Part shown: positions 4,013-11,619 of the stretch, piece by piece
How the letters are laid out: every line of letters begins with the position of its first letter
Position numbering within the stretch: the stretch's first letter is position 1
IMG/VR virus record: IMGVR_UViG_3300030451_000383
Span: 23,071-47,788 of that record
Reading direction: 5' to 3' (one strand)
DNA: 24,718 bases
DNA from: a virus
Notes under the pieces: generated by a model
Databases searched by the model: none
Told to the model about the DNA's origin: nothing
Seen by the model: the letters and a program-made list of their open reading frames with translations, nothing else
Program-made: the position numbers and the translations under genes

Positions 4013-5999
4013 TTTGCATTCCTATTATTTGTGCCATAATAGCTGCTTCTTCAGGGTCATTGAGTATTTCATCAGGGTCTAAATCTAAGCTATAGGCTAG
4101 TTCACTTACGAGTTTAGAAATTTTAACAAATGGTGCGATAGCTGGACTTTGTGCAGTTTGTAAGAACATAGTCAATCTTTGACTTCGTACTTCTTTTTGC
4201 ATCAAGCTATTTGTACCAGTAGCTTTAACTTCTAAATCACCTTCAATATCTAATTCACCTTCATGAAATTGCATATTCCATTGAAAGTAAGATTCTCCAA
4301 GTGGCTTTAATAAAAAGTCATCAAGGTTTTTGATAACAGTTTTAATATTTAAACTAGATGCTCCAAGTAACATTGACATACCAGAAGCAGTTCTTGTCAT
4401 ACTTTGTACTCCTGTTTGTCCATGTGAGTAACTTGGTATTCCAGTTTGTTCATCTGCAAGTTGTCTAAACTTGTCAAACATCATTAAATTTTCTTGTGAT
4501 GTATTAGGAAACTTTAAACCATGTATAGCTTGTCCGGGCATTCCTGCTTGTCTTCTAAATATTTTACCCGGATATATTTCCATACTTTGTCCACCAACTA
4601 AAGCAGACTCATCTACATCAAATACTAACGAACCTGACATTGCTAGATTATCAATAGCCATTCTTGCATGACCATTCATAATCTGTTGTGAATCATCCAT
4701 ATTTTCTGCTACACCAATACCAAAAAAGTTATAAGGATTTCTTTCGTATGGGAAAGCATGATAAGGTATTCTGTATGGAGTAAATGGATTTATTACAGCT
4801 CTTAGTAGTTTAGTTCCACATATCCATGCATTTACTTGTACTTCATCTAAATCATCAACATCATCTGATAATTCTATACCAACTTCTCTTGCATATTCAG
4901 CATCCATAATACCCCAATATTCAAGAACTTCAAAGTTAGTTTGATAATCTTCTTCAGCTTTATTATCATCTCTAATAGCAGATTCATAATCTTTTTCAAC
5001 ATAGTTAGGACCTTGTTGAATACATTCACGAATTGCATCTTCATTAAAGTATGGCATATTTCGTAATTGTCTTAATTGACTACGATTCATTTTGTGCCTA
5101 TGTATTACATATTCACATTCTTCCATTGTTGTTGCTGAAGGGTCAGGATAAAAATCCCAACAACTTACAAACTCTATTCTTGGTACTCTTACTTCTAATG
5201 GATTATATGTTCTATTTCCATTTTCTCCAGCTTCCCATTTATGTAATTTTTTATTAAAATTAAATGGTCCTTTTACAATTCCTGTACCTATTAAAGCAGA
5301 TTCTAAAAGAGCATTTCTTAATTCTGAATTACCATTTGATTCTTCTATTTGGTCATGGATAAGTTTTTCCATTCTTCTTGCAGATTTTTGTGCAGGAGAT
5401 AATTCTAAAGCTTTTGGGTCTGGGCTAGCTCCATTTGATAAAATACCTGCTTCTTCTGCTTGAACTTCAATAGGAGCTTCAAACATACCATTATAAAAGG
5501 TAGCTCCCGGTTTTAAAACTCTACCATCACCTTCATAACCAACATCATAAGGATTATCTATTCTATTTCCTATATCATCTGGTATTGATGTTTCTATATT
5601 AGGCGATGCATTATTTATATCTAAATGTGCTATATCTGTTTCGCCTTCTGGTATTTTAGTTTCGTTAATACCTATTGGAAATTTACCTGTACCAAATATA
5701 ACATCTACTAATTGTCCAAAAGCTGCTAATACTTTTGTTTTTGTAATTTTTACAAATACTCTAGATTTTTCTGATTCTCTAAATTTAACATTTTTAGCAT
5801 ATAAACCTCTATAGTTTTCGTATGCTTTTATCCATCTTTTTTCATTTATATCTCTAGCTGTTTCTGCTCTAGCATATCTACCATTTATAATACCAATAAG
5901 ATTTCTTTCTTGGTCTTCTTCTAATGCTAATGTTTTTCCAGCTTCGCCTTCTACTTCTTCGTAAATGTTGTCAGCGTTTAAAAATGTATTTTCTTCCAT
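3831..5999 (-). CDS. Portal protein
   Basis: 722 residues from the ATG at 5999. It should form the dodecameric ring at the capsid vertex through which DNA is packaged and ejected. Its size, its place right after terL, and segments such as ENMDDSQQIMNGHARMAIDN, YPGKIFRRQ and SMTRTASGMSMLLGASS (stem and wing region of podovirus portals) support the call. The C-terminal 60 or so residues are Gly/Pro/Gln-rich (for example QPGGQPSPMGGLQGTPEQP) and lie over another gene. I placed the start two bases after the terL stop; an in-frame ATG at 6020 would add seven residues. Neither has a good ribosome site, so translational coupling to terL is likely. Confidence 0.85.
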   Translation of the reverse strand: MEENTFLNADNIYEEVEGEAGKTLALEEDQERNLIGIINGRYARAETARDINEKRWIKAYENYRGLYAKNVKFRESEKSRVFVKITKTKVLAAFGQLVDVIFGTGKFPIGINETKIPEGETDIAHLDINNASPNIETSIPDDIGNRIDNPYDVGYEGDGRVLKPGATFYNGMFEAPIEVQAEEAGILSNGASPDPKALELSPAQKSARRMEKLIHDQIEESNGNSELRNALLESALIGTGIVKGPFNFNKKLHKWEAGENGNRTYNPLEVRVPRIEFVSCWDFYPDPSATTMEECEYVIHRHKMNRSQLRQLRNMPYFNEDAIRECIQQGPNYVEKDYESAIRDDNKAEEDYQTNFEVLEYWGIMDAEYAREVGIELSDDVDDLDEVQVNAWICGTKLLRAVINPFTPYRIPYHAFPYERNPYNFFGIGVAENMDDSQQIMNGHARMAIDNLAMSGSLVFDVDESALVGGQSMEIYPGKIFRRQAGMPGQAIHGLKFPNTSQENLMMFDKFRQLADEQTGIPSYSHGQTGVQSMTRTASGMSMLLGASSLNIKTVIKNLDDFLLKPLGESYFQWNMQFHEGELDIEGDLEVKATGTNSLMQKEVRSQRLTMFLQTAQSPAIAPFVKISKLVSELAYSLDLDPDEILNDPEEAAIMAQIIGMQNAGQENGNEAQPGGQPSPMGGLQGTPEQPQELGVTGTGGGNIGTGNVPVAGEAEFTGQVG

Positions 6000-6000
6000 A

Positions 6001-7797
6001 TTAATAACCAAATGTAGCATCTACAGGTTTATACATTTCACGCTTTAGTCCTCTAATTCTTTCTAATGGACTTTCCATTCTTGGTCTGCTCATAATCATA
6101 TAACGCAAAGCATCATAAGCATGGTCAGAAGCATGAGTATCTACATCTTCTGGGTTAGTTTTAGATAATGGTATTGACTGTAATTCTCTTATTAAGTTAG
6201 GACATGTATTAAATATCTGTAACTTAGGTCTACCATTTTCTCTAACTTTTAAATACTCGTGTACTTGTATTTTACCTTGTATTCTGTTCTTATCAGCTCT
6301 TCTTAATTTATGTCCAGCTCTGACAAGAGATTCTCCGACAGTAGGACCAGTTGTTCCTGTATTTGCCCATGCTGCAGTATCTAAAACACCACTAACAGAA
6401 AAAGGGTCTTCTGTCTCCATATCTGTTATTATACTAGCTAATTCAACACCTGTCAAGCCTTTTTTGTATAATTCTCTATAAATTATTAAAGTATTGTCAT
6501 TTATATCCATTATTCCCCATAAACAACAAGATTCTGAAGCATAACCATAGTCAATACCTTTTACTCTTTCCCAATGTAAAGGAAGTGCAAAAGGAGATAT
6601 AACATGTACACTAGGGTCAAATTCTGTAAAAGCTGCACCTTCTGCAACATCCCAATTACCTTCTAGTAATTGTTGTCTTTGTGTAGGAGGTAAAGATTTA
6701 AGCATTTGTTCATAAACTCCATCCTCTGCGAGGTATGGATTGTCTGCTAGTTTAGCTGGTATAAATTTTCTAGTTAACCCATCTTTGCCTATAAAACTTT
6801 TATTATATTCATTAGAATCTACATACCTTTTTTTAACCCAATGAGAACCTACACCACCGGGGTTAGCTGTACAGCGTAAATAAGTTTTTATTTCTGGGTC
6901 AGTAGTACGAAGTCTAGAAGCAAGATAGTTCCAACTAAACTCTGTAGGTAAGTGTGTTATTTCATCAAAGCCTATCCAACTATATGCTTGTCCTTGATAT
7001 CTATATACATCTGCATCTCTTTCTAAGAAACCAAACTCTATCTTTGCACCACTAGGAAAGTTCCATAGCTTTTCTACTTCTCTAAACTTAGCACCGGGAA
7101 ATGCTTGTGGGTATAGTTCACGAGACTTATCAATCATCTCACGAAGTTCTGGCATAGAACGCCTTAATATTAATGCTCTATGTGCTTTTTTGTGAGCATA
7201 GCGTAATGGGTCAACTAACATTGCATAAGATTTACCACCACCTGCTGCACCACCATAAAGTACATCTTTTTCATCAGCAGCTAAAAAGTCTGTTTGTGGA
7301 CCTTCATTAGCATGAAATATTACATTGTTTTCTTGTAATACTTCTTTAATAGAAGGAGATACTTGTTCTAACTGTTCATTAGTTACTATATTAGATGTAG
7401 TTTTTTCTGTAGCTTTTTTAAGTACTTCTTGTTCTGTTTTTATTTTAGATTCTTTATAAGCTATTTTCTTTTTTGCTTTTGCTAGTTCTTTTTTATCTCT
7501 AGCTAGTTTTTGTTTTCTTTTTTGTTCTGGTGAATACCTGTATTTTACTTTAGGTTGTGGAGCTTTTTGTACAATTTTAGATAATCCTACATGACTTATT
7601 TTTCTACCTGTTTCTTCTGTTATAAGTTCGGCTGCTTTTCTTAAAGAATATTCTTGATTAATTACAGATTGTATGTATTGATTGAGTATTTTTAATTCAG
7701 ATTCTATAGGTTTTAGATAACCTTTAATACTACTTAATTCATAACCAAAAGGTATAGTAACGCCTTTTTTCTTTATATAATTTTTAGGTATGGACAT
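6001..7797 (-). CDS. terL: Terminase large subunit with N-terminal HTH-like extension
   Basis: 598 residues. The packaging ATPase has Walker A GGAAGGGKS at 182-190, Walker B YSWIGFDEI with D278-E279, and coupling motif CTANPGG at 309-315. The nuclease domain starts with GIDYGYA (D416), continues with VLDTAAW (D473) and ends with HASDHAYDALRY (D558 region). It pumps and cuts the phage DNA at the portal. About 150 residues precede the ATPase: a possible helix-turn-helix (SLRKAAELITEETGRKISHV, residues 51-70) and a Lys-rich helix (about 90-130). That extension is longer than in many TerL proteins. The ATG overlaps the previous stop (TAATG). Confidence 0.95.
   Translation of the reverse strand: MSIPKNYIKKKGVTIPFGYELSSIKGYLKPIESELKILNQYIQSVINQEYSLRKAAELITEETGRKISHVGLSKIVQKAPQPKVKYRYSPEQKRKQKLARDKKELAKAKKKIAYKESKIKTEQEVLKKATEKTTSNIVTNEQLEQVSPSIKEVLQENNVIFHANEGPQTDFLAADEKDVLYGGAAGGGKSYAMLVDPLRYAHKKAHRALILRRSMPELREMIDKSRELYPQAFPGAKFREVEKLWNFPSGAKIEFGFLERDADVYRYQGQAYSWIGFDEITHLPTEFSWNYLASRLRTTDPEIKTYLRCTANPGGVGSHWVKKRYVDSNEYNKSFIGKDGLTRKFIPAKLADNPYLAEDGVYEQMLKSLPPTQRQQLLEGNWDVAEGAAFTEFDPSVHVISPFALPLHWERVKGIDYGYASESCCLWGIMDINDNTLIIYRELYKKGLTGVELASIITDMETEDPFSVSGVLDTAAWANTGTTGPTVGESLVRAGHKLRRADKNRIQGKIQVHEYLKVRENGRPKLQIFNTCPNLIRELQSIPLSKTNPEDVDTHASDHAYDALRYMIMSRPRMESPLERIRGLKREMYKPVDATFGY
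6428..6456 (-). promoter_or_regulatory. Perfect consensus sigma-70 promoter inside terL
   Basis: On the minus strand TTGACA (6456-6451), a 17-base spacer and TATAAT (6433-6428) match the consensus at all twelve positions. Transcription would start near 6421 and run toward portal, scaffold and capsid. It lies inside terL coding sequence, so it could be an internal booster for the structural genes or a coincidence of AT-rich codons. Confidence 0.5.
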
Positions 7798-8799: not shown

Positions 8800-9234
8800 T
8801 TACATTCCATTGTGAGGATATAAATAATTATGTCTTCTATGAGTTATTTTTTCTTCCCAGTTTTCTATTGCTTTACGAATACTATCTTCTGCTAGTACAC
8901 TACAATGCAATTTAATTGGTGGTAATTCTAATGCAGAAGCTATGTCTTTATCTTTAATAAGTTTAGCTTCTTCTATAGTTTTACCTTTTAACATATCTAC
9001 AAACATTGTAGAAGATGCGATTGCACTTCCACAGCCATATGTTTTAAATTTGACATCTTCTATAATATTATCTTTTAATTTTATTTGTAGTTTCATAACA
9101 TCACCACATGCAGGAGAACCTGTCATTCCTGTAGCAACATTAGGGTCTTTAGGGTCAAACCTTCCAACAGAATGTTTTGCTGGATTGTTTAAAACACTCT
9201 CAAACCTATCAACTACTTTTTGTGAATATGCCAT
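8800..9234 (-). CDS. iscU: IscU-type Fe-S cluster scaffold protein
   Basis: 144 residues that align along nearly the full length with bacterial IscU. MAYSQKVVDRFE at the start, SPACGDVMKLQIK at 40-52, KFKTYGCGSAIASS at 62-75 and ELPPIKLHCSVLAEDSI at 103-119 are close to E. coli IscU as I recall it. The cluster ligands are present: C43, D45, C68, H110 and C111, as is LPPIK, the HscA chaperone-binding motif (LPPVK in E. coli). IscU holds nascent Fe-S clusters made by the IscS desulfurase and passes them on. About ten residues are inserted near residue 14 and a 15-residue tail is added. No IscS, HscA or ferredoxin is seen nearby, so it would use host partners. It lies in the virion arm between small basic protein genes and starts in a TAATG overlap. 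Confidence 0.95.
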   Translation of the reverse strand: MAYSQKVVDRFESVLNNPAKHSVGRFDPKDPNVATGMTGSPACGDVMKLQIKLKDNIIEDVKFKTYGCGSAIASSTMFVDMLKGKTIEEAKLIKDKDIASALELPPIKLHCSVLAEDSIRKAIENWEEKITHRRHNYLYPHNGM

Positions 9235-9798: not shown

Positions 9799-9908
9799 AA
9801 TGAATGAAGTATACCTTTACCTATAATCCAACCGACTAAAAACCAAACACAAAACCATACTGGATGGTCTTGAGCAAACTGCCATATTTCATTCAGATAG
9901 TTCTTCAT
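9795..9908 (-). CDS. Small membrane protein (37 aa)
   Basis: A 37-codon frame starts within the last codons of the small terminase gene and ends in a GTGA overlap with the 67-residue gene. The product has a short polar start (MKNYLNEIWQFAQDHP) and a Trp-rich hydrophobic helix (VWFCVWFLVGWIIGKGI), a typical one-span membrane protein. The tight overlaps on both sides and the hydrophobic core make it a convincing gene despite its size. Possible roles are lysis or membrane modification; none is shown. Confidence 0.65.
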   Translation of the reverse strand: MKNYLNEIWQFAQDHPVWFCVWFLVGWIIGKGILHSL

Positions 9909-10296
9909 AGTCTGTCACATCTATAGTTTCTTTTTCTGGTAGTATAAATATACCACCTTGAACATTATGATTTACATCTAATCGTTCTTTTTTACCTAAA
10001 CCAACTCTGTCAAGTATTGTTTGAGCTGCTTGTAGCTTTACATTAGCTTGAGGTAGTGGTTTATTACTTTCTAATACTTCAACAAGTTTAAAAGCTGCAG
10101 AAGGGGCTTCCTTTGCAAGTACATCAGAGGCTAAATCTACTATTTCATGTTTAAGACTTTTAATTACTTGGTAGTGATTTCCTTGGTAGCCTGCAAGCTC
10201 TGCCGAAAGTTTAAGATTTCCTTTAGTCTCTATAAGACTATTTAGAAATAATTCTTGTTTTTCTGTTAGTTTTCTTTTTGTTGTAGGTAAAGACAT
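9889..10296 (-). CDS. terS: Terminase small subunit
   Basis: 135 residues. An N-terminal helix-turn-helix-like region (LTEKQELFLNSLIETKGNLK, then LSAELAGYQG) is followed by a helical stretch with APSAAFKLVEVLES and NVKLQAAQTILDRVGLGKKE. The latter is a recurrent pattern in small terminase subunits, which recognise the packaging site and load the large subunit. It is the first gene of the leftward arm. The ATG sits six bases after a perfect TATAAT, which places the transcript start on or next to the ATG; there is no Shine-Dalgarno site, so translation is probably leaderless. Confidence 0.8.
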   Translation of the reverse strand: MSLPTTKRKLTEKQELFLNSLIETKGNLKLSAELAGYQGNHYQVIKSLKHEIVDLASDVLAKEAPSAAFKLVEVLESNKPLPQANVKLQAAQTILDRVGLGKKERLDVNHNVQGGIFILPEKETIDVTDYEELSE

Positions 10297-10302
10297 ATAA
10301 AT

Positions 10303-10331
10303 ATTATATACTTAAATGGGGCATTTGTCAA
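10303..10331 (-). promoter_or_regulatory. Consensus sigma-70 promoter of the leftward virion arm
   Basis: On the minus strand TTGACA (10331-10326), a 17-base spacer and TATAAT (10308-10303) match the consensus fully. The expected +1 is near 10296, the A of the small-terminase ATG. It is the only strong promoter seen upstream of the packaging and virion genes, which suggests they are read by host RNA polymerase. Confidence 0.85.
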
Positions 10332-10356: not shown

Positions 10357-10385
10357 TTGACAAAATGCTTTTTAATCTATATAAT
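10357..10385 (+). promoter_or_regulatory. Consensus sigma-70 promoter facing right into the non-coding region
   Basis: TTGACA (10357-10362), a 17-base spacer and TATAAT (10380-10385) match the consensus fully. It is divergent from the left-arm promoter, with the two -35 boxes about 25 bases apart, so one protein bound here could affect both. The transcript would start near 10392 and run into a region with no rightward gene for more than 1 kb. Confidence 0.85.
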
Positions 10386-10448
10386 AAGATTAAGTCTGCC
10401 GGGGGTTAAATACATAACCTATAGAGCTGTCCAGCTCTACTTAGCCCC

Positions 10449-10631
10449 TGTGAAGTTTCCAATTAAAAATAGCACAAAATGTTCGACCAGTACATATATA
10501 TATAGGTAGGGGTGGGGTGGCTCTTGCCCCGTGCCTGACAAACTTTAAAAAGTTTGACAAACTTAACAAATCTCTGCAGAAACCTGTTGGGTAAAGTCTA
10601 TAAAGACTTTAAAGACTTGTGAAGTTTCCAA
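10449..10631 (+). repeat. 14-base direct repeat in the non-coding region
   Basis: TGTGAAGTTTCCAA occurs at 10449-10462 and again at 10618-10631, 169 bases apart. Both copies follow a C/T-rich or hairpin segment. The repeat may be a protein-binding site or part of repeated RNA modules. Confidence 0.7.
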
Positions 10632-10753
10632 GATTTGTAGGGTAAATGTGTCGGCATTTTATAACTATTCTAACTCCAAAGAGTTAAGCAGTCTATAACG
10701 ACATAACAAGGCTTTACAGACCATTTAAGCATAGCTAAATGGTATCCTGTGCA

Positions 10754-10860
10754 GTATGTATTTGAGTTCGTATGAAAGCTCTAAAGAGCTTCGCGTAAAC
10801 TTGATGTGTATGTATTGTTCTCATAGGAAAACTCTAAAGAGTTTCGCAGGAGAATGTGTA
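10754..10860 (+). repeat. Tandem hairpin units with compensatory changes
   Basis: Two similar units, 10754-10810 and 10808-10860, share GTATGTATT, a hairpin with a CTCTAAAGAG core, TTCGC right after it, and a TGTGTA end. The stem is AAGCTCT/AGAGCTT in unit 1 and AAACTCT/AGAGTTT in unit 2, a G-C to A-T exchange that keeps the pair. The flanks also pair differently but in the same place: AGTT/AACT in unit 1 and TTCTC/GAGAA in unit 2. This points to selection for RNA structure. Confidence 0.65.
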
Positions 10861-10864
10861 GGAT

Positions 10865-10890
10865 AAAAAAAACCCCTGTGAATACAGGGG
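10865..10890 (-). terminator. Intrinsic terminator of the leftward 93-aa gene
   Basis: On the minus strand CCCCTGT, a four-base loop and ACAGGGG form a perfect seven-pair GC-rich stem followed by eight T. It lies 25 bases after the stop of the 93-residue gene. In the plus direction the stem is followed by CTTTCAG, so it should stop mainly leftward transcription and keep it out of the hairpin region. Confidence 0.85.
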
Positions 10891-10915
10891 CTTTCAGCTA
10901 GGGAGCTAGGTAGGA

Positions 10916-11197
10916 TTAACCAATGTTTACAAGTTTCTTGTAAGACCTCATTGCTTTCAAATCTGCACTAGGCAAAGCCTTCATGCTTAAGATTTTAGCG
11001 ACTTGACCTTGAGAAAGTGGAGCTTTCTTGTCATTCAATCTTGAGAGGTAATGACCATGAATAGTTCCCCATTTGATGTCCTTTGGACATTTTGGAGAAT
11101 TACTGAACTGCGAAGCAATCTTTCTGACCATTCTGTAGCTTGCTACAGCTTTAGGGTTGTCAACAGTAAACGAAGTTTTAGCATTTGAATTTGCCAT
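10916..11197 (-). CDS. Hypothetical protein (93 aa), monocistronic
   Basis: 93 residues, basic, starting MANSNAKTSFTVDNPKAVAS, with PLSQGQVAKILSMKALPSAD near the C-terminus, which could be a small helix-turn-helix. The gene stands alone: a promoter-like pair lies about 60 bases upstream, AAGGA is 9 bases before the ATG, and a strong terminator follows. Such a unit between the divergent arms often encodes a regulator or an early host-takeover protein, but no family is recognised and the role is inference. Confidence 0.75.
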   Translation of the reverse strand: MANSNAKTSFTVDNPKAVASYRMVRKIASQFSNSPKCPKDIKWGTIHGHYLSRLNDKKAPLSQGQVAKILSMKALPSADLKAMRSYKKLVNIG

Positions 11198-11579
11198 AAT
11201 TTTTTTCCTTGCTCCTTTGGAGCATTTTGCTAGGGCGACATTGCCAAAGCTCTTACATAGTAATCCAGCTAACTCTCATTTGTCAAACTCTTTCTCGTGC
11301 GTGATTGTCACGCGTAGAATAATATTCTTCCTGCGACAACAGGCGAAGAAAGTAAAATCACCAAATTTTCAGTCAAAAAAATCAACGAACAATCGAAATA
11401 TTACACATAAAGCATACATACACCTGTATAAAATTTACAAGCTTGGCAGATATGGGATAGGCTAACTAAATTTTACGCGTAAAACACATAAAATATACAT
11501 ATAAAACGCATAAAGTTTATGTATAAATTTGTATTTACACATCTGCCCATAATTAAAATCTTATACTTGCGTTTCCTAC
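11198..11579. other. AT-rich non-coding region with palindrome and short repeats
   Basis: No convincing gene. It holds the leftward promoter at 11257-11286, a hairpin GCGTGA/TCACGC at 11299-11313, and the perfect 14-base palindrome TTTTACGCGTAAAA at 11471-11484. A partial ACACATAAA at 11403-11411 and two copies of AAAACRCATAAA at 11481-11492 and 11503-11514 occur here; another full copy lies at 12083-12094. These could be operator sites for a phage regulator or replication-initiation repeats. A plus-strand reading frame over 11157-11465 was judged spurious. Confidence 0.5.
11257..11286 (-). promoter_or_regulatory. Promoter of the 93-aa gene
   Basis: On the minus strand TTGACA (11286-11281), an 18-base spacer and TACTAT (11262-11257, four of six matches) precede the 93-residue gene. 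The transcript would have a leader of about 55 bases containing GCTCCAAAGGAGC, a small hairpin just before the ribosome site. Confidence 0.6.
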
Positions 11580-11619
11580 TTGACAACAATTCAACAATCC
11601 GTATAATTGATAGGGCAAT
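11580..11619 (+). promoter_or_regulatory. Early sigma-70 promoter with GGGCAAT start element
   Basis: TTGACA (11580-11585), a 16-base spacer and TATAAT (11602-11607) are followed by GGGCAAT at 11613-11619. The GGGCAAT begins exactly 33 bases after the first base of the -35 box, as in three other promoters of this arm. It should start the message for the 22-residue and 118-residue proteins. Confidence 0.85.

Follow-up and report, generated by a model that had tools for sequence, protein, structure and literature searches.

A conserved non-coding element between the late and early arms of HMO-2011-type marine phages: a candidate packaging control region with a clade-specific hairpin array

The window analyzed here, a stretch of 24,718 nucleotides from the 53.9-kb viral record IMGVR_UViG_3300030451_000383, contains a region (10386–10864) located between terS, the gene for the small terminase subunit (9889–10296, minus strand), and a minus-strand gene for a protein of 93 amino acids (10916–11197). 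The assignment of terS is based on weak matches to PHROG 51/2538 and Pfam Terminase_2, and its product is 58% identical to the annotated terS product of HTVC103P. The large-subunit gene terL (6001–7797, minus strand) matches Pfam Terminase_6N with an E value of 4.6e-14. Between terL and terS, an IscU/NifU-like iron-sulphur scaffold protein is encoded (8800–9234, minus strand), and DNA similar to this gene is annotated as iscU in a phage record. The relatives of the locus are HMO-2011-type marine phages, i.e., pelagiphages such as HTVC103P, together with the CRP roseophages. One account describes phages of the HMO-2011 type as dominant and widespread marine phages, and makes no mention of noncoding, intergenic or promoter features (PMC9038755). 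The locus is the switch between a leftward terS/terL arm and a rightward replication arm, and a PolA-type polymerase and primase/helicase proteins are encoded near it.

As stated in the initial annotation, the plus strand is non-coding for more than 1 kb, with no plausible gene starting before 11.5–11.7 kb of the window; the only open reading frame of at least 50 codons inside the region (10357–10509) has a TTG start and spans the promoter described below. The convergent 93-residue gene is not universal among related loci, and family and fold searches for a role of its product as an RNA- or DNA-binding partner gave no match. A hairpin at 10868–10895, beside a conserved plus-strand A8 tract, carries its T-run on the minus strand, and is thus a terminator of this opposing gene and not an evident terminator of a plus-strand RNA. 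A further hairpin, TGCTCC-TTT-GGAGCA, is found at 11210–11224, just upstream of the start of the 93-residue gene and near its ribosome-binding site.

The region is directly preceded by a sigma70-type promoter (TTGACA-17-TATAAT, 10357–10385, plus strand) that scores 12/12, in agreement with the consensus promoter noted initially, and from which a transcript is expected to start near 10392. A promoter scoring 11–12/12, about 100 nt before the core element discussed below and pointing across it, is present in 75/75 loci, compared with scores of mostly 8–10 in shuffled flanks. A transcript across the region probably exists and may well fold. Close to its expected 5′ end lies a conserved plus-strand motif (10396–10416, CTGCCGGGGGTTAAATACATA) that is kept in near relatives and appears in a looser form, CCnGGGTTnnATA, in distant ones. 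A divergent promoter towards terS (10303–10331, minus strand) likewise scores 12/12 in the window, and does so in 64/75 loci; since its −10 element ends only 7 nt from the terS ATG, the terS mRNA may be leaderless. A second perfect plus-strand promoter (TTGACA-16-TATAAT) is located at 11580–11607, just before the early genes.

Within the 479 nt of the region, seven perfect hairpins that do not overlap (stems of 6 or more, loops of 3–8) are present, at 10422–10439, 10539–10556, 10592–10611, 10671–10686, 10720–10743, 10776–10791 and 10829–10844. The claim of at least seven perfect inverted repeats therefore holds: 300 dinucleotide shuffles of the region contain 0.75 hairpins on average and 4 at most, with 0/300 reaching seven, and 479-nt windows across the 24.7 kb average 1.4, the maximum being this region. 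The predicted fold of the plus strand has an energy of −137.3 kcal/mol (z = −4.5). Because the minus strand also gives z = −4.5, folding of the single sequence does not separate an RNA from DNA palindromes. Searches of Rfam at gathering and relaxed thresholds gave no relevant match for the region, including GOLLD, ROOL and phage pRNA. Elsewhere in the family, a glutamine riboswitch (RF01739, 53 bits, E 8e-9) was found in the contig of a related phage (L063, 5990–6048), some 600 nt past terS.

For comparison, about 200 related loci were considered overall, among them those from two protein-guided scans, which yielded 78 loci with terS and 28 with the neighbouring gene. Loci that contain both genes have 620–1250 nt between the two. 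Near relatives keep the promoter, the start motif, the core and a variable run of short hairpins with linkers such as ACCAAGATT. In distant loci, the promoter and a stretch AAAATGTnnGA..ATATATA..(G/C run)..TGG..CCTGCC recur upstream of terS, and little else aligns; in annotated phages, DNA similarity to the region was confined to chance matches.

This universal core occupies 10449–10535 on the plus strand of the window (AAAATGT..GA..ATATATA..G/C run..TGG..CTTGCC). A sequence-only profile of the core, R2, finds it in the window with an E value of 1.4e-12 and matches 94/94 loci overall. In the 54 loci that were not used to build the profile, R2 matches exactly once in every case, always opposite to and upstream of terS, and 53 of these matches are below E 2e-5. 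The core starts 132–326 bp from terS in the 75 loci where both could be measured. Among cultured phages, the E values are 0.0005 for HTVC115P, 0.0045 for HMO-2011, 0.03 for HTVC103P and 0.04 for CRP-603, and these four best profile matches are all located at the early/late switch, in the expected orientation. Two of these phages, HMO-2011 and CRP-603, are exceptions to terminase proximity: their terS is kilobases away, so that the core goes with the switch. A scan with the core pattern returned 68 viral stretches, and terS is present in 55 of 62 newly fetched loci, the second half of the core in 47 of them. In 257 Gb of cellular genomes the pattern has 53 matches, not beyond chance, none of which includes either the second half or the promoter.

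Conservation of the core is at the level of sequence. A tree-aware covariation test of our own, written after the R-scape idea with substitutions reassigned along a FastTree tree, detected no significant covariation in the core on 70 or 93 diverse sequences, and RNAalifold found no structure in it on either strand. Sequence conservation without covariation is as expected of a protein-binding DNA site. Between the close relatives L038 (3563–3652) and L045 (4487–4574), the G run of the core seems to have been exchanged for its reverse complement (CCCATGGGGTAGGGGTGG versus CCCCTAGACCCCCCATGG), and whole lineages (L049, L058–L061) carry the C-run form. A G-quadruplex or G-rich R-loop as a conserved feature is ruled out by these exchanges.

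Six of the seven perfect hairpins belong to an array (10539–10844, plus strand) that, unlike the core, is restricted to the clade of the window: strong folding with 4–5 hairpins per 200 nt is a mark of this clade. As a module confined to this clade, the array appears to maintain its pairing. In its 3′ domain (10622–10747, covariance model R1), an alignment of 22 sequences contains 26 double-change cells compared with 8.9 in shuffles (0/500), and the signal is abolished when the pairing partners are slid; the covariance model detects the domain in 34 loci. In the tree-aware test, the two that rank highest among about 7,700 column pairs are paired in the proposed structure, with E values of 0.6 and 1.1 when all pairs are tested and, by our arithmetic, of about 0.002 and 0.003 when only the 24 proposed pairs are. 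Several hairpins hold their place and pairing with altered bases across the diverse clade, and repeats that change without keeping their pairs, the outcome named initially as refuting an RNA, were not seen for the array in this clade. Hairpin number and place vary between close relatives. As for the strand on which the pairing acts, it is not decided by the ratio of G-U to A-C cells in the 3′ domain (24:18), and plus-strand z values are lower than minus-strand values in 14/18 sequences for the 5′ 200 nt and in 13/18 for the next 200 nt.

In other lineages, the slot taken by the array holds DnaA boxes or other repeats. The perfect DnaA box TTATCCACA occurs 30 times in 101 kb of post-core interval, in 15/110 loci and with up to five copies per locus, compared with 7 in 362 kb of flanking genes, a 15-fold enrichment over the flank; 300 permuted 9-mers have a mean of 1.1. 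In 12/15 box-bearing loci, the first box begins 13–72 nt past the core. Six loci (L074, L075, L078, L230, L233 and L234) have two to five perfect boxes just past the core, mostly on one strand; the region of the window itself has no DnaA box. Other repeats in the same slot are ATATGTGATCACAAA, three times at 1402–1525 of L225 (CRP-603), and AACTGTATAAATTTTGTACA, three times at 4504–4625 of L058. The GC skew changes sign at the locus, a change confounded by the switch in gene strand.

A link to packaging is provided by PhiM6, an HMO-2011-like Sinorhizobium phage sequenced from phage DNA, for which PhageTerm analysis of the reads predicts a terminally redundant genome with a pac start that was set as position 1 (PMC6256558). 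In its record (MH700630), a hypothetical-protein gene in the place of terS begins at 601 and terL at 1082, with none annotated before. On the strand opposite to terS, PhiM6 carries GAAAAATATGACGAAAGTGTATACAACTATAAGTACCCCACCCTTGGCCCTGCCTGACCC, with its end about 50 bp from position 1. The 3′ signature of the core, TGG.{1,5}CTGCC.{2,3}CC, has a single match in the 64 kb of PhiM6 examined, at 65–51, on the expected strand and about 55 bp from the pac start. It is expected 0.65 times anywhere in the 64 kb, which by our arithmetic gives about 5e-4 for the pac-start spot, an estimate that applies to a short signature composed after PhiM6 was seen and matched by about 41% of family members. The full core profiles are not significant in PhiM6 (E 0.13 in one search, outside the top matches in another), no clear promoter across the core is found in this phage, and the core signature is absent from CHOED, a distant phage with a terS-like gene.

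Based on these observations, we consider the region to be a pac control region, possibly pac and origin together, in which a universal pac core under a conserved promoter is accompanied by a clade-specific hairpin array, a reading to which we give a probability of about 55%. In this view, it would serve an HMO-2011-like headful-packaging phage as the non-coding locus of control, placed where the late (terS/terL) and early arms meet. The core would act as the pac element, recognised by terminase through the TerS encoded next to it to start packaging. The presence of the core once per locus, opposite to and near terS in 54/54 independent loci, argues for this role, and the position of the core signature near the read-inferred pac start of the distant PhiM6 points the same way. 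By analogy to the spacing in PhiM6, we infer that the first cut would fall roughly 50 bp beyond the core, near 10582 (10572–10592, about 54 bp past TTGCC), with DNA taken up towards terS. Transcription driven by the strong host-type promoter would cross the core and continue into the hairpin array. Compensatory changes appear to maintain this array, which may function within the transcript or as palindromic DNA next to the cut. Since the slot holds DnaA boxes or other repeats in related lineages, replication may also start here, and origin functions are probable in at least some lineages. Several observations count against the pac reading: the match in PhiM6 is to a short signature, with full profiles not significant there; a promoter, which a pac site does not need, is present in every marine locus, whereas PhiM6 has no clear one; the DnaA boxes point to replication rather than packaging; and in HMO-2011 and CRP-603 the core is remote from terS.

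Contigs continue across the locus, as they would for headful genomes with circular permutation; those that end inside the array do so at scattered positions that resemble assembly breaks. A cohesive-end (cos) site is disfavoured because the contigs run straight through and because PhiM6 is reported to be terminally redundant with a pac start (PMC6256558). In one 55.7-kb contig (IMGVR_UViG_3300046167_000092, L091 and L092), the 93-residue gene and a partial array are found at both ends in slightly different versions, an arrangement that probably reflects overlapping strain variants in a circular assembly.

Among other explanations, one that is compatible with the pac reading is a replication origin opened by transcription from the promoter, with lineage-specific initiator sites after the core, in the manner of the transcript-primed origins known in T4 (oriF; PMC3016281) and ColE1 (PMC5043065). 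The enrichment and placement of DnaA boxes, the repeat arrays of other lineages, the skew switch, the conserved promoter and the replication genes nearby would all fit, but the region of the window lacks a DnaA box, boxes occur in a small minority of loci, the skew is confounded, and the change of the core G run to a C run in many lineages argues against a G-rich R-loop. As the explanation of this region, an origin is possible but doubtful; across the phage group, an origin placed here is plausible, and for the phage of the window it is no more than a possibility. A combined packaging and replication start site working through its own transcript, in which early transcription across the core and the folded hairpin-rich RNA would decide between replication and packaging use of the site, we regard as improbable.

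The initial annotation favoured an early structured RNA acting on host or phage regulation. The promoter in 75/75 loci, the folding energy, the compensatory changes in the 3′ domain and the plus-strand folding bias agree with a trans-acting RNA gene of about 480 nt. Such an RNA is nevertheless unlikely: the universal core is without covariation, the array is not kept outside one clade and is replaced there by DnaA boxes or other repeats, the minus strand of the window folds equally well, the G-U to A-C ratio (24:18) does not decide the strand, neither an evident plus-strand terminator nor an Rfam match is present, and the core signature lies at the read-inferred pac start of PhiM6. A free-standing regulatory RNA is thus less supported than a pac control region, and the universal part of the locus is better described by a packaging region or an origin, both named initially as alternatives. 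That the transcript is an early-operon leader, with the core acting in nascent RNA, e.g., as an antitermination signal, is very improbable. The core does lie within about 100 nt of the expected start, and L058 and L065–L074 have a plus-strand gene directly after the region; in the window and most near relatives, however, a convergent gene and a second perfect promoter (11580) intervene before the early genes, and a core without covariation does not suit a signal acting in RNA. The hairpins may also have no function of their own, having arisen through template switching or as small mobile palindromes that the gap tolerates. Their variable number and place between close relatives, and their minimal, often partly self-complementary loops, are in line with this origin, which we hold to be unlikely given that, across a diverse clade, the position and pairing of several hairpins persist while their bases differ.

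In known headful phages, the SPP1-type pac is a non-coding DNA element beside the small terminase gene. Compared by description only, the present locus shares with it the non-coding nature, the terS-adjacent position and the headful mode; to our knowledge, the SPP1 pac sequence is unrelated, and descriptions of it do not place it under such a promoter. The PhiM6 pac region is also comparable, with a read-inferred pac start in the non-coding gap before the gene in terS position and a core-like sequence about 55 bp from that start in the same orientation (MH700630; PMC6256558), but it is very diverged and lacks the clear promoter and the hairpin array. T4 oriF and oriG (PMC3016281) and ColE1 RNA II (PMC5043065) resemble the locus in having a promoter, a non-coding transcript and a downstream unwinding or initiator region. 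R-loop formation or priming, as in these systems, is not in evidence at the locus, and the polarity of the G run is not kept; a primer of the ColE1 RNA II type is not indicated, as the G-rich segment for the hybrid is a C run in many lineages. The T4 origins need no conserved RNA structure. The large ornate phage RNAs GOLLD and ROOL (PMC12286853) are similar in being phage-encoded, hundreds of nucleotides long and rich in hairpins, with function unknown, but differ in that the region has no Rfam match, no tRNA neighbours, and a universal part without covariation.

In the literature, we found no account of the start of packaging or replication in HMO-2011-type phages, and no paper on a pelagiphage noncoding RNA. 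The interpretation of the region as an RNA is corrected by the comparison of loci, in which the hairpins emerge as an addition made in one clade and the older part has the behaviour of a DNA site. An element of about 90 bp, found at the early/late switch of all loci examined and under a conserved promoter, provides one precise place to test the start of packaging and replication. A shared locus for the control of packaging and of replication is suggested by the DnaA boxes that sister lineages carry in the corresponding slot, and the finding matters for where these phages start packaging and replication, and less as a new RNA.
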